From positions 1 to 37,806 of the IMG/VR virus record IMGVR_UViG_3300010970_000056: a stretch of 37,806 nucleotides of DNA; one strand, written 5' to 3'. Of this stretch, positions 1,929-37,769 are shown piece by piece (position 1 is the first letter of the stretch; each line of letters starts with the position of its first letter). Below the pieces are notes generated by a model. The model had not been told where the DNA came from. It ran no database searches and saw only the letters and a list, made by a program, of their open reading frames with translations. This stretch comes from a virus. The translations under genes were made by a program, and so were the position numbers.

Positions 1929-4277
1929 ATGAGTGAGGATCGCACGAAGTTCATAGACTATATAACAGGTTTGACCGGCGACACAGTCGGCGAGACAGCC
2001 CTAGTTGTGCGCCAGAAGCCGCAGCATGATAGCGATGGCAACCTGATATTCCACGCAGATGGTGCGCCGAAGGCTACATTTCCTGCATTCCTGCCAGAAA
2101 AGACCCGCATGAAAGAAGGCGAGGCTTGGTATGTCAACACAGGCTCGTTCATCGTTGACCGCTTTGTAGACGGCAAGCCTGCCGCCAAGTCGAGCAACGT
2201 CGAGTATGTGTTGTTCATGATGCTGGATGACGTTGGCACTAAGTCGAAAGAACCGCCGCTGGAGCCAACATGGGTGCTGGAAACCAGCGAAGGTTCGTTC
2301 CAGTGGGGCTACGCGTTTAGCGAACAGCCTAAGAAGGGCGACTTCTGCGCTGCCATCAAGGCGATTGCCGATGCAGGCTACACTGATCCGGGCGCGACTA
2401 ACGCTGTCCGCAACTGCCGTATCCCCGGCAGCATTAACCTGAAGCGCGGACGCAACAACTTTGCAGCGCGGCTGGTATCGTTCAACCCTGAGCGTGAGTA
2501 TACCTTAGACCAAATCTGCGAGGCGCTGGACGTCACACCAGAGGAAGGCGACACAGCCGATTATAAAGCTGTGCAGTTGCGCGACACTGGGCTAGACAAC
2601 GTCCTGACATGGCTTGCGGACAACAACCTAGTCCTGTCGCACATCAACGCTGACGGCTGGTGCGGCATCGTCTGCCCTAACCATGAGCAACACAGCGACG
2701 GCATGATCGAAGCGCGCTACAAGCCGCTGGATCGTTCGTTCTGCTGCTATCATGGGCATTGCCAAGACCTAGACAGCCGCACCTTTCTTGATTGGGTAGC
2801 CAATGAGGGCGGCCCGAAGGTAACGCCCGGCTTGCGTGACGAACTAATCGCTGAACGTATGGCGTCGATGTATGACAAGATAGCGCCGACTGAAGCCTTC
2901 CCTGACGAGGCCGCAGCGCGGGTGCGTGAGGTCGAGAAAAAAGAAGCAGGACGGCTGGAACAAAGCGAGTGGTTCGAGCGTTTCGCATACATCCAATCTG
3001 ATGACTGCTATTTTGACATGGTGACGCGTCAAGAGATAGCCCGCAACGTCTTTAACGCGTTGTTCCGTCACGTTGACTGCCGTTCCATCCACAAGAAGAC
3101 GCAGCGTGTGCAGTCGTCCATCTATTTCGACGAGCGCCGGCAGGATCGCGGTGCGCCTGCGCTGTCGGCGGTGACGTTCGCCGCTGGCGATGACGTGTTG
3201 GTGACGCGTGACGGGCTGGTCTACGGCAACCGCTGGACGGATTCCCGCCCTGACGTGTCAGACAGTGACGCGATTGCGGATCACGATGTCGAACCTTGGC
3301 TAGAGCATTGCCGCAATCTGGTGGCAGATGATGTCGAGTTAGACCACATTCTTAACGCTATGGCGTTTAAGATACAAAACCCAACCGTCAAGATTAACCA
3401 TGCCATCCTGATCGGCGGCGACGAAGGCGCTGGTAAGGACAGTATGTTCCAGCCGTTCCTATGGGCGCTGGGCGGTAAGAACTGGCGCAATCGTTCAGTC
3501 ATTGAGGCTGGTGGCTTAGACAGCCAGTGGGGCTATGCGCTGGAGGCTGAAGTTGTCATCCTGAACGAGTTAAAGGAACCAGAAGCGCGTGAGCGCCGCG
3601 CTATGGCTAACAAGCTGAAGCCGCTTATTGCCGCGCCGCCTGAAACGCTGTCGGTCAACCGAAAGGGGATGCACCCCTATGAGTTGGTCAACCGCCTGAT
3701 GGTGATTGCATACACGAACGATCCGCTGCCTATCACGCTGCCGACACAAGACCGCCGCTGGTTCTGCGTGTGGACGCGCGCCCCGCGTATGGCAACGGCG
3801 GCGGCTAAGGCGCTGTGGTCGTGGTATGAGGCCGGCGGTTACGAAAAGTGCGCCGCTTGGCTGTGGCAGCGTGACGTGTCAGCGTTCAACCCTGCCGCTG
3901 CACCGCCTGTCACCGAATGGAAGCTGAACATGGTCGAACATGGCATGAGTGTAGCCGAGAGCTACCTTGTGGACATGATGCGGACGCGATCAGGCGTGTT
4001 CTCTGATGGCGTCATTGGCGGGCCTTTCCATCGCATTTGTGACGCGCTGGCGGTCAACGTGCCTGCCGGTGTAAAGATACCGCAGGCGGCATTGCTTCAC
4101 GCGTTAAAAGAGGCTGGCTGGATTGACATGGGGCGGATCGGTTCGACTGAATTGCCCACCAAGAAGCATATCTTTGTCGCGCCTGATCTTGTTAAGAAGC
4201 ACAGCAAGTCAGAATTGCGCCGCATGGCAGAGGACTTGCCCAAGTCTGGGTTTATGCCGTCGATTGGCAAGAATTGA
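1929..4277 (+). CDS. Phage primase-helicase (RepB-primase-like N-terminus, AAA+ DUF5906-type helicase)
   Basis: A 782-residue replication protein expected to prime and unwind DNA for the polymerase encoded just upstream. Residues about 95-175 resemble the RepB/archaeo-eukaryotic primase fold (MMLDDVGTK, ETSEGSFQWGY, RIPGSINLKRG). Residues about 244-285 hold a Cys/His cluster (WCGIVCPNH then CCYHGHC) that looks like a zinc-binding element. The C-terminal half carries a Walker A motif GGDEGAGKDS (496-505), a Walker B-like stretch VVILNELKE (about 542-550) and a conserved region ending in DRRWFCV, as in virus-type SF3/DUF5906 helicases. ATG at 1929 follows an AGGAG-type ribosome site (aaggagaaccgcg). 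The gene ends before the 4339-4371 terminator, so it closes this rightward transcript. The domain split is inferred from motifs. Confidence 0.85.
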   Translation: MSEDRTKFIDYITGLTGDTVGETALVVRQKPQHDSDGNLIFHADGAPKATFPAFLPEKTRMKEGEAWYVNTGSFIVDRFVDGKPAAKSSNVEYVLFMMLDDVGTKSKEPPLEPTWVLETSEGSFQWGYAFSEQPKKGDFCAAIKAIADAGYTDPGATNAVRNCRIPGSINLKRGRNNFAARLVSFNPEREYTLDQICEALDVTPEEGDTADYKAVQLRDTGLDNVLTWLADNNLVLSHINADGWCGIVCPNHEQHSDGMIEARYKPLDRSFCCYHGHCQDLDSRTFLDWVANEGGPKVTPGLRDELIAERMASMYDKIAPTEAFPDEAAARVREVEKKEAGRLEQSEWFERFAYIQSDDCYFDMVTRQEIARNVFNALFRHVDCRSIHKKTQRVQSSIYFDERRQDRGAPALSAVTFAAGDDVLVTRDGLVYGNRWTDSRPDVSDSDAIADHDVEPWLEHCRNLVADDVELDHILNAMAFKIQNPTVKINHAILIGGDEGAGKDSMFQPFLWALGGKNWRNRSVIEAGGLDSQWGYALEAEVVILNELKEPEARERRAMANKLKPLIAAPPETLSVNRKGMHPYELVNRLMVIAYTNDPLPITLPTQDRRWFCVWTRAPRMATAAAKALWSWYEAGGYEKCAAWLWQRDVSAFNPAAAPPVTEWKLNMVEHGMSVAESYLVDMMRTRSGVFSDGVIGGPFHRICDALAVNVPAGVKIPQAALLHALKEAGWIDMGRIGSTELPTKKHIFVAPDLVKKHSKSELRRMAEDLPKSGFMPSIGKN

Positions 4278-5365: not shown

Positions 5366-5698
5366 TTACAGTTGTACGTTAGTGGTAGGCTTAGGTCGTC
5401 TGTCGTTCAGCCGTGCCAGCCAGTAGGCTTGCTCCGGTCCGTGTGAGCGCGCCGCATGGTATTTGAACAGCGCAAGGGCCAAGTCGTCATAACCCTGCGT
5501 CTGGTGCGTCGCTATGAGCGGTGACGGCGTCATAGGCTTGAGGTTCGGGCGGTAGTCCCTAATCCCTATGCACGCGTCCTCTATATCGCGCAGCGTTAGG
5601 TTAAGGTTCCGTTCCCTGTTGATGTATTGCATAACCGCCGACTTGTCGCTGATGTATCCGCTCAGGTGCCTAATCTTGGCGCGTAGGTTCCTATCCAT
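5366..5698 (-). CDS. Hypothetical early protein, 110 aa, basic, possible DNA binding
   Basis: Start ATG at 5698 overlaps the stop of the upstream gene by eight bases. The N-terminal half (MDRNLRAKIRHLSGYISDKS onward) is basic and helical, with a spacing that could form a helix-turn-helix-like fold (KSAVMQYINRE, then LTLRDIEDACIG). The C-terminal half contains YDDLALALFKYHAA, a helix pattern reminiscent of small phage regulators. A DNA-binding or regulatory role is possible but not shown; I recognise no named family. Confidence 0.65.
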   Translation of the reverse strand: MDRNLRAKIRHLSGYISDKSAVMQYINRERNLNLTLRDIEDACIGIRDYRPNLKPMTPSPLIATHQTQGYDDLALALFKYHAARSHGPEQAYWLARLNDRRPKPTTNVQL

Positions 5699-5897
5699 TA
5701 GATTTCACCCTGCGTTTGTAGCGTCCCGTTTCAGGGTCGCGCATTAGGCCGTGCCGTTTCCATTGCAGCAATTCGGTAGCGTCGCGCAGCCACATAGCGC
5801 GCCATTGGTCGCGCTCCTCTTTTGTGAACCATAGCAGGGTGATCGTAAAGGCTTGCGCGGCTAACAGCCCCGCGATTGCAATCTCATATTGTGTCAT
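5691..5897 (-). CDS. Small single-pass membrane protein, 68 aa
   Basis: An N-terminal hydrophobic helix (residues about 4-24) is followed by a strongly basic, Trp-containing tail (KEERDQWRAMWLRD, then GRYKRRVK). This predicts an inner-membrane anchor with a cytoplasmic domain that may touch nucleic acid or lipid headgroups. Its ribosome site, GGAGG, lies inside the end of the 19-residue gene at 5899-5958, so the two are likely translated in sequence. Function unknown. Confidence 0.65.
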   Translation of the reverse strand: MTQYEIAIAGLLAAQAFTITLLWFTKEERDQWRAMWLRDATELLQWKRHGLMRDPETGRYKRRVKSNG

Positions 5898-7207: not shown

Positions 7208-7390
7208 TTAAGCGTCTAAATCAATCAGACGCTGCAATGATTTGGTCAGTTCGCTGGCCCGCGCCATGCTGTCGCTTGTTCCGTCAATGAGAAATGCCGT
7301 AATCTTTTCCGAAAGCTCTATTACAGTGTCGCGGTAGGTTAGGCCTTCGCCGCGCAAAAAATCAAAAATGGTGTTGGTGTCGTTAGTCAT
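7208..7390 (-). CDS. Hypothetical first early protein, 60 aa
   Basis: First gene after the leftward promoter at 7421-7449 and therefore probably the earliest and most strongly expressed product on this strand. It is acidic and helical (MTNDTNTIFDFLRGEG, then TYRDTVIELSEKITAFL), ending SLQRLIDLDA. AAGGAGCAACTAAA before ATG at 7390 is a strong ribosome site. Small acidic first-early proteins of lytic phages often bind host enzymes, but nothing in the sequence identifies a target. Confidence 0.68.
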   Translation of the reverse strand: MTNDTNTIFDFLRGEGLTYRDTVIELSEKITAFLIDGTSDSMARASELTKSLQRLIDLDA

Positions 7391-7420
7391 TTTAGTTGCT
7401 CCTTGCTGTCTTGATACCCT

Positions 7421-7449
7421 CTTATATTACCCTCAAACTATAGTGTCAA
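7421..7449 (-). promoter_or_regulatory. Sigma70-type early promoter (leftward)
   Basis: On the - strand TTGACA (7444-7449), a 17-base spacer, then TATAAG (7421-7426): consensus -35, optimal spacing, five of six -10 bases. Transcription would begin about 7414, about 24 bases upstream of the first early start codon. It is the best promoter match I found in the window. Confidence 0.88.
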
Positions 7450-7491
7450 CAACAAATTGTGTTGCGATAAAAAAATATCGCTAGTTTGAGG
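7431..7491. repeat. Nested inverted repeats over the early promoter
   Basis: Outer arms CCTCAAACTA (7431-7440) and TAGTTTGAGG (7482-7491) are perfect inverted copies; the first lies inside the spacer of the early promoter. Between them GCGATA (7464-7469) and TATCGC (7476-7481) form an inner inverted repeat around six A. The arrangement suggests paired operator sites for a looping or dimeric regulator, or an A-tract upstream element. Confidence 0.55.
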
Positions 7492-7532
7492 ATAGCCTAA
7501 CTTTTAGCGCGCGTTTGAGGCGTAAATAAATC

Positions 7533-7541
7533 TGTGGATAA
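7533..7541 (+). other. DnaA box
   Basis: TGTGGATAA, the exact complement of the consensus TTATCCACA. A single 9-mer could occur by chance, but its position at the edge of the iteron region supports a role in host-initiator recruitment. Confidence 0.55.
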
Positions 7542-7638
7542 GTTATAAGGGCGAAATAGGCGAAATAGTCATTTGTTAGGCTATCAATTCAACCTAAATG
7601 ACTATTTTTAAATGGCTGAATTCTGCGCTTCTCCAGCC

Positions 7639-7656
7639 GATCTAGGCGATCTAGGC
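7639..7656 (-). repeat. Left iteron pair
   Basis: Two abutting copies of GATCTAGGC (7639-7647, 7648-7656), the reverse complement of the GCCTAGATC units to the right of the AT-rich stretch. They are followed by TATTGG, so the TAGGCTAT word also overlaps the second unit. Confidence 0.75.
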
Positions 7657-7745
7657 TATTGGATATGTAGTCACTTAAAGATAAAAAAATGATATATAGA
7701 ATATAACCTATACGGTTCGCGTTACTTCGCGGTGACTTGAAAACC

Positions 7746-7793
7746 GATAGCCTAGATCGCCTAGATCGCCTAGACTTGACGTTAACGTAAAGC
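7746..7793 (+). repeat. Long repeat copy A with iterons and near-palindrome
   Basis: GATA, two full GCCTAGATC units (7750-7767) plus a partial third (7768-7774), then CTTGACGTTAACGTAAAGC. Compared with copy B (7825-7863) it has one extra 9-bp iteron and one substitution (G for T) that breaks one pair of the 18-bp palindrome. Confidence 0.8.
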
Positions 7794-7824
7794 AATGACT
7801 CGGTTCGTCGCAGACTTGTAAGAG

Positions 7825-7863
7825 GATAGCCTAGATCGCCTAGACTTTACGTTAACGTAAAGC
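7825..7863 (+). repeat. Long repeat copy B with perfect 18-bp palindrome
   Basis: GATA, one full GCCTAGATC unit (7829-7837) plus a partial (7838-7844), then CTTTACGTTAACGTAAAG (7845-7862), a perfect 18-bp palindrome centred on GTTAAC. The 18-bp dyad is of a size suited to a dimeric DNA-binding protein. Confidence 0.8.
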
Positions 7864-8127
7864 TGCCCCATAGATTGTTGCAATTCATTCGCATTAGCAG
7901 CAGCAATATGTTTTTCTTAATGCGACTCATTAGCAATAAGCGAAAGGCCATCCAAGAATCTGCTATTGCGAATCATTCTCATCAGCGTCGAGCAGGGGGT
8001 GGGGGGTGGCAGGGCCGAGCGCCGCGTGACTGTCACGGTCACATACCGCAAACAATTTTTTTTATTTTAAATGTTATAACGCACACTGCATCAAAGCCTG
8101 TTGCGTATCTGCATCCAGTATATTAGT
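7864..8127. other. Non-coding leader before the terminase genes
   Basis: No convincing gene. It contains a G-rich tract (7995-8014) with runs of 5, 6, 2 and 3 G that could form a G-quadruplex. An interrupted dyad CGTGAC-T-GTCACG (8025-8037) is followed by a third GTCAC half-site (8038-8042). After a T-rich stretch comes TGTTATAAC (8072-8080), an extended -10 type sequence without a clear -35. The late promoter, and perhaps the packaging start site, should lie here, but neither can be fixed by eye. Confidence 0.45.
8072..8080 (+). promoter_or_regulatory. Possible late promoter (extended -10)
   Basis: TG-T-TATAAC matches an extended -10 element and would start transcription near 8087, about 40 bases before the terminase start. 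There is no recognisable TTGACA upstream, so this is weak. Confidence 0.3.
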
Positions 8128-37106: not shown

Positions 37107-37769
37107 ATGTCAAATATCACTACTTTTGGTGGCGCTAACTTGCCGTCCGTTCAGTCACTCTCCGGCGCGTTGCGCTCCATCCAGTCTGAAGTCGCCCCCG
37201 GCGGCACAGTCATTCTGAAGATGGACAAGACAGGCCATTGGGTTTTCGGTGCAGACCAGACCGAAGTCGAAGACGGCAGCCTGTGGGCCGCCAATCCGTT
37301 CTCATTCGTGCATGGTTACATCGCATGGGGTAAAGGCGAAGTGCTGGCTGAAAAGCTGGTTCCGGTGTCAGAACCGCTGCCGCAGCTTGACCCTGCGCCA
37401 TCAGGCGCGGAACGCGGCTGGGAAATGCAGGTCGGCATGATGCTGGTTTGCACGAATGGTGAAGACAAGGATATGCAGGCACGCTTCACGGCTACATCAG
37501 TCGGCGGCAAGCGTGCAGTGCAGGCGTTGGCGGTTGCCATCGCCGATCAGGTCGAGAAAGACCAGAACAAGCCAGTGCCGTTGATCGAACTGAAGTCTGA
37601 GCATTACCAGCACAAGACCTATGGCCGTATCTATACGCCTATCTTTAACATTACCGATTGGGTGTCGATGGACGCCGATGCGGTTGCCGAAACAGAGGAT
37701 GCGGAGTTGGAAGTCGCCGCTGAAACTGAAGCCGCTGATGGTGCGCGTCGTCGTCGTCGCGTAGTATAA
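37107..37769 (+). CDS. Conserved hypothetical phage replication-region protein, 220 aa
   Basis: Between DUF2800 and the DNA polymerase most relatives carry DUF2815, a single-strand-binding-like protein. This one does not match that consensus by eye. Features: MDKTGHWVFGADQTEVEDGS, then LWAANPFSFVHGYIAWGKGE, a beta-rich body, an acidic C-terminal region (EDAELEVAAETEAADGA) and a final ARRRRRVV. The WVFGA/EDGSLWAxNP pattern recurs in phage proteins I have seen unannotated. A single-strand-binding role is a positional guess. Ends 37 bases before the window edge. Confidence 0.75.
   Translation: MSNITTFGGANLPSVQSLSGALRSIQSEVAPGGTVILKMDKTGHWVFGADQTEVEDGSLWAANPFSFVHGYIAWGKGEVLAEKLVPVSEPLPQLDPAPSGAERGWEMQVGMMLVCTNGEDKDMQARFTATSVGGKRAVQALAVAIADQVEKDQNKPVPLIELKSEHYQHKTYGRIYTPIFNITDWVSMDADAVAETEDAELEVAAETEAADGARRRRRVV

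Follow-up and report, generated by a model that had tools for sequence, protein, structure and literature searches.

The stretch at 7464-7863 of the window (the window being the whole 37,806-base stretch of DNA analysed here, a podovirus-like phage contig of ~38 kb) is very probably the core of a replication origin, in which short iterons would be bound by a winged helix of the phage primase-helicase, with the wing of that domain reading their variable bases. The initiator is most likely this primase-helicase, and not the product of the ORF at 5366-5698, because primase-helicase residues 738 and 740 track the repeat class and lie in the wing loop of its predicted C-terminal winged helix. This reading draws on sequence comparison across relatives of the phage, as set out below.

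Architecture of the probable origin in the window

The window represents a nearly complete, circularly permuted genome, because in relatives the gene matching positions 37107-37769 directly precedes the polymerase gene that opens the window. It carries its own large terminase and endolysin, and a portal is annotated in GenBank relatives, which argues against an integrated, helper-dependent satellite. The origin lies in a non-coding gap between divergent genes, with the leftward ORFs ending at 7390 and TerS starting at ~8128; the ORFs listed within 7391-8127 have no support. Read directly from the sequence, all elements named in the preliminary description (DnaA box, two repeat sets and A+T tract) are present where it placed them. 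It had overlooked two outlying iteron-like units, a central dyad and an 18-bp palindrome, CTTKACGTTAACGTAAAG, that stands 3' of each forward array (Table 1).

Table 1 Features of the putative origin region and of the proposed initiator gene in the window
Feature	Position	Strand	Remark
Primase-helicase, 782 aa, DUF5906/D5-type helicase	1929..4277	+	Proposed replication initiator
Predicted C-terminal winged-helix domain, residues ~663-768	3915..4232	+	AlphaFold models; weak winged-helix matches
Wing loop, residues 738-744 (GSTELPT)	4140..4160	+	Covaries with iteron word
Intergenic region holding the putative origin	7391..8127	.	Between leftward small ORFs and rightward terminase genes; same site upstream of TerS/TerL in relatives
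Outlying iteron-like unit GATAGCCTAAC	7491..7501	+	
DnaA box TTATCCACA in conserved AAATAAATCTGTGGATAA context	7533..7541	-	Plus strand TGTGGATAA; sole exact copy in window
Outlying iteron-like unit	7575..7585	-	Plus strand GTTAGGCTATC
Left iteron array, two reverse 9-bp units	7639..7659	-	GATCTAGGC at 7639-7647 and 7648-7656
A+T-rich tract, putative unwinding element	7671..7712	.	Lowest-GC 36-mers of contig
Central dyad AACCTATACGGTT	7705..7717	.	
Conserved lead GGTGACTTGAAAACCGAT before forward array 1	7731..7748	+	Form constant whatever the iteron word
Forward iteron array 1, three 9-bp units ATnnCCTAG	7747..7774	+	GCCTAGATC-type
18-bp palindrome CTTGACGTTAACGTAAAG, one mismatch	7775..7792	.	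Other palindromes stand there in relatives
Conserved lead GCAGACTTGTAAGAGGAT before forward array 2	7810..7827	+	
Forward iteron array 2, two 9-bp units	7826..7844	+	GCCTAGATC-type
Perfect 18-bp palindrome CTTTACGTTAACGTAAAG	7845..7862	.	

The repeats are specific to this region of the contig. Four exact copies of the 16-mer GCCTAGATCGCCTAGA are present, all within 7641-7844, and at up to three mismatches it has five matches versus 0.19 expected (0/100 shuffles); similarly, each of the five occurrences of CCTAGATCG in the contig falls in the origin region. The two iteron sets flank an A+T-rich tract, as in modules of the PICI/SaPI type, and 7676-7711 within this tract (GC 0.14) is the lowest-GC 36-base window in all 37,806 bases. 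Scans of the region with Rfam models gave no match, a tRNA scan found none, and promoter and terminator scans returned nothing above chance. Direct DNA similarity to the origin region was absent from GenBank phages and plasmids, and a repeat search in prokaryote genomes yielded a single partial copy, in one bin. The GC-skew switch anticipated near 7.5-7.9 kb was not evident, as skew goes from 0.09 to 0.02 between 6 and 9 kb with no sign change, although in a phage genome of this size skew is a weak test. We note that a G-rich stretch, GCAGGGGGTGGGGGGTGG, followed by GCCGCGTGACTGTCACGG and CAAACAATTTTTTT (window ~7985-8065), is strongly conserved 3' of the origin in most close relatives, and is possibly a pac site or a terminator.

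Conserved layout and variable repeat words among relatives

Relatives were fetched by large terminase (80) and by primase (80). Dozens of the closer ones share a common plan upstream of TerS, in which reverse units come first, then an A+T-rich stretch that contains a dyad, and then a lead followed by forward units, the last combination occurring twice. The lead reads GACTTG, about six further bases, and SAT, and 45 of 54 distinct origins contained a match to the dyad AACCTATAYGGTT or a similar one. Orientation is conserved along with layout, as the comparison with related phages proposed in the preliminary description bears out: at 25 class A loci, 108 forward versus 3 reverse units lie to the right of the A+T tract, and 63 reverse versus 30 forward units to the left, whereas class D comprises 4 distinct loci and its orientation pattern is not clear.

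The repeat word itself varies among relatives, with CCTAG, CCTAA, CCCAG, GACGTC/CAACTTG and TCCAC all represented. Units read ATAGCCTAG, ATAGCCTAA, ATGACCCAG, ATGACGTC or ATGACAAC (8-bp period) in closer relatives and ATGACCCAAA, TTGTCCACA, ATGACCTAC and ATAGCCAACA in more distant ones. Class B origins, which have N at primase residue 738 (for example, L136, L139 and L127), mostly show a tandem period of 8 bp rather than 9, so that spacing shifts with the wing. The palindromes after the forward arrays are swapped among relatives (L007, L008, L014 and L022), where ACGTTAACGT, TGTGTTAACACA, TTGTTAACAATTGTAAAC, GTTGCAGTGCAGCA and GTGTATTAATACAC are found, and extra GTCATGAC/CACGCA repeats stand between both forward arrays in L010, L011, L093 and L123. 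Mixed CCTAG and CCCAG units occur in the origins of L107, L111, L121 and L138, whose wings are GSTD or ACV; such origins are possible intermediates of a specificity switch. Two GenBank relatives carry other repeats before TerS, namely L308 (OR003940.1, 3600-4120) with CTGACCCACTGGG and L309 (MW202483.1, 6900-7010) with GTTTACAT/ATGTAAAC, and their prim-pol or their wing differs as well, which suggests that the position of the origin outlives replacement of the initiator.

Domains of the primase-helicase

The primase-helicase scores above the Pfam cut-off for DUF5906 and combines a D5/SF3-like helicase with a predicted C-terminal DNA-binding domain. Its N-terminal RepB_primase match is below the curated cut-off, and the PHROG call is ‘DNA primase’. 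Foldseek matches of the helicase part include NrS-1, poxvirus D5/E5 and SaPI PriRep1 (7pds). In the AlphaFold model, residues 675-768 run helix, strand, helix, helix, strand, loop, strand, which is the winged-helix order. Searched by itself, the C-terminal domain gave only weak PDB matches (E ~0.1 or worse), most of them to winged-helix proteins, and a Pfam search with this domain of the window's copy returned no family.

Covariation of the wing with iteron class

Iteron classes were fixed from DNA counts alone and then compared with the proteins, each primase column being scored in 46-47 relatives as a fraction of the maximal information on class. Residue 738 carries 0.95 of this maximum and residue 740 carries 0.78, with 742-744 ranking behind them, as opposed to 0.005 for the median column and ~0.24 for the best column before residue 680. 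The residue at 738 is G in class A, N in class B and A or H in class D. The covarying residues coincide with the wing (738-745 in the predicted fold), and the helix at ~719-728 is almost invariant. The best columns elsewhere reach 0.19 in TerS, 0.21 in TerL and 0.34 in PolA.

Shared ancestry was rejected as the cause of this covariation. Class is unclustered on a tree of the primase body (residues 1-681), changing 16 times compared with 17.6 for shuffled labels, and N738 switches with class in 7/7 independent supported pairs (sign test, 0.016; 13 such pairs on all branches); because class changes about as often as shuffled labels and all seven contrasts switch N738, common descent fails to explain the match. 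Within-class identity equals between-class identity in the rest of the primase, with only the bin 721-760 clearly differing (0.82 versus 0.71), and the sequence between wing and origin is without a clear class pattern. In near pairs of unlike class, the primase can be aligned over its whole length at ~90% or more, and many intervening blocks and the terminase side align at ~90-95%, but alignment largely or wholly fails in the origin block. In the L032/L093 pair, for example, wing and origin block differ, and identity is ~90% or more over much of the 2-3 kb that separates them. These alignments indicate that wing and origin change together despite their 2-3 kb separation, possibly by paired recombination or through relaxed intermediates. 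Together, the conserved architecture and the covariation strongly support the earlier suggestion that the 9-mers form an origin layout to which a phage initiator would bind.

Tests on further loci and reverse searches

A set of 59 further distinct loci served to test residue rules that had been written down in advance. All 35 of 35 scorable new loci obeyed the residue-738 rule, and 30/34 loci to which the residue-740 rule applied conformed to it, the effective number being smaller since the new loci come mostly from two clades (ASG and KSR) and are not independent draws. Exceptions to the residue-740 rule are L033, L152, L051, L123, L131 and most ASS wings. 

In the reverse direction, DNA words alone were searched against 2.9 million viral contigs. 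The CCTAGATCG word matched 21 stretches, all confined to this phage group rather than shared with a foreign replicon and some of them on contigs seen before, and the wing was GSTELPT in 9 of the 10 readable primases. The CCTAAA word led to wings GSS or GSV, CAACTTG to NSK, and CCCAG to HSV and, in two distant-branch phages, AST, a wing not seen before that obeys both rules in primases 57-64% identical to that of the window. No contradiction of the rules emerged from the CCTAAA, CCCAG and CAACTTG searches; CCTAAA and CCCAG matches outside the phage group are without the wing motif and may be due to chance. The sole exception is L318 (1-7134), where a class-B wing (NSKDYMN) is paired with class-A iterons. 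This locus is 100% identical to L115 over ~5 kb and diverges abruptly at the primase 3' end, which suggests either an assembly chimera or a recent recombinant.

Alternative explanations

Covariation reveals a recognition partner and not its purpose, and the region sits between divergently transcribed genes; the repeats might therefore be operators, through which the primase-helicase or another phage protein regulates divergent early and late promoters instead of starting replication. We consider this improbable, given that the partner is a helicase-primase rather than a regulator, that arrays lie on both sides of the tract with the lowest GC in the genome and that sigma-70-type promoter matches in the region number 0 versus 2.0 expected, although operator and origin roles are not mutually exclusive. 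Still less probable is an origin driven by DnaA in which the iterons are secondary. The consensus box has a conserved context in many relatives, and exact boxes are concentrated in origin regions (25 in 71 kb, versus 0 in 121 kb of primase genes), yet 29 of 54 distinct origins are without an exact box and retain iterons. The host DnaA invoked in the preliminary description is at most an optional helper, because an exact box is present in just 25/54 distinct origins, and the window's box does not appear to be required in the manner of DnaA plus Rep iteron-plasmid origins.

In favour of a packaging (pac) site read by the small terminase is the location of the repeats just upstream of terS/terL in relatives, but covariation with repeat class is lacking in TerS and TerL, whose best columns reach 0.19 and 0.21 of the maximum, although TerS is present in 74/74 relatives; a terminase pac site was rejected on these grounds and retains scarcely any probability. 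The same very low standing applies to the idea that another phage protein is the iteron-binding initiator and the primase merely follows. Both small leftward ORFs are widespread (5366-5698 in 64/74 relatives and 5691-5897 in 71/74), and one 5691-5897 column reaches 0.47 of the maximum, but shuffled labels give up to 0.44 for that product and up to 0.45 for 5366-5698, whose own best value is 0.37, and all are far below the 0.95 of primase residue 738. These ORFs were rejected as initiators on presence and near-shuffled covariation. The preliminary description had offered both the 5366-5698 product and the primase-helicase as candidates; the latter stands, and the former, absent in 10/74 relatives, does not.

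Proposed mechanism and implications

An origin read by the primase-helicase would operate as follows. The C-terminal winged-helix domain would bind the 9-bp iterons, with the almost invariant helix (residues ~719-728) contacting constant bases and wing loop 738-744 reading the variable ones; relative to the A of CC[T/C]A, residue 738 would set the preceding base and residue 740 the following one. Initiators gathering on the left reverse array and the right forward arrays could position helicase rings to either side of the A+T tract, which these rings would melt before priming and starting two forks. A bidirectional start is suggested because the arrays are inverted around the tract. Host DnaA may assist in some relatives only, and relatives would switch specificity by joint change of wing and iterons. 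More tentatively, such coupled switching may split the phage group into many mutually non-recognising replicon types, with the wing loop as a modular specificity dial and a partly decodable two-residue code; satellites, rival phages or defence systems able to read the origin or to steal it might be what drives diversification.

In the open-licence papers searched, we found no description of this type of origin in a free phage group, of such an origin lying apart from its initiator gene, or of a wing-based code that has switched many times in nature. The analysis names a likely initiator and binding site from sequence alone for a large group of uncultured aquatic phages, and provides a natural series of matched initiator/iteron pairs, with over 100 loci, about eight words and repeated independent switches in near-identical proteins. 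With this series, two questions become testable, namely how the wing of a winged helix determines which bases are read, and how a replicon survives the simultaneous change of its initiator and several of its repeats. An origin code would also allow replicon compatibility to be predicted in metagenomes.

Comparison with known systems

For the helicase part, the best structural and sequence match is the NrS-1 primase-polymerase/helicase (6k9c, 6lrb), at ~18% identity over the aligned part. Initiator-iteron matching in geminivirus Rep is reportedly the subject of papers by Arguello-Astorga and Londono, cited by the geminivirus source used here. As in geminiviruses, where close viruses carry unlike iterons matched by the iteron-related domain of the initiator, as described in PMC12548392, repeat and initiator vary together, but geminivirus Rep is a rolling-circle endonuclease of ssDNA plant viruses with an unrelated fold and mechanism. 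The PLE RepA/ori and ICP1 Odn systems likewise treat compatible initiator and iterons as exchangeable modules, and an antagonist reading the iterons is the driver of PLE diversification proposed in PMC8263062; unlike here, the PLE initiator is of RepA_N type and an antagonist is known, none being known for this phage group.

C-terminal recognition of iterons has precedents in SaPI Rep and SCCmec Cch2 (PMC7581432) and in P4 alpha (PMC4234260). Cch2, whose iterons are AAGTG, is a D5-related helicase that recognises short direct repeats through its C-terminal part (residues 400-538); it differs in having a separate primase-polymerase, and the sections of that source consulted describe no natural series of changed iterons (PMC7581432). 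Satellite phage P4 alpha resembles the window's protein in joining helicase and (probable) primase in one polypeptide with a C-terminal winged helix, predicted here and, according to PMC4234260, binding origin repeats in P4. The P4 primase is of Toprim type, whereas the N-terminal part here is weakly RepB_primase-like, and P4 alpha was not matched among the sequences of solved structures searched with the window primase.

The PICI/SaPI pri-rep-ori modules come close in several respects. The PICI origin layout, as given in PMC6092414, matches that of the window, and both initiators are helicases from one broad family, SaPI PriRep1 (7pds) being a fold match. The C-terminal domain of PICI/SaPI Rep reads iterons (PMC7581432), a role that covariation leads us to propose for the domain here. 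The differences are that the window belongs to a phage that encodes terminase and lysis functions itself and is no satellite, that specificity here would map to the wing loop, and that many word types occur within one phage group. The primase gene ends at 4277 and the iterons begin at ~7491, so that the origin stands ~3.2 kb from the initiator gene, beside terS, and not immediately 3' of rep as in PICI/SaPI; nor do the iterons lie inside the initiator gene, as in lambda O-type origins, being intergenic. On our best reading, a free phage here has an iteron origin like those of satellite islands and P4 alpha, with an initiator and repeats that switch specificity together.
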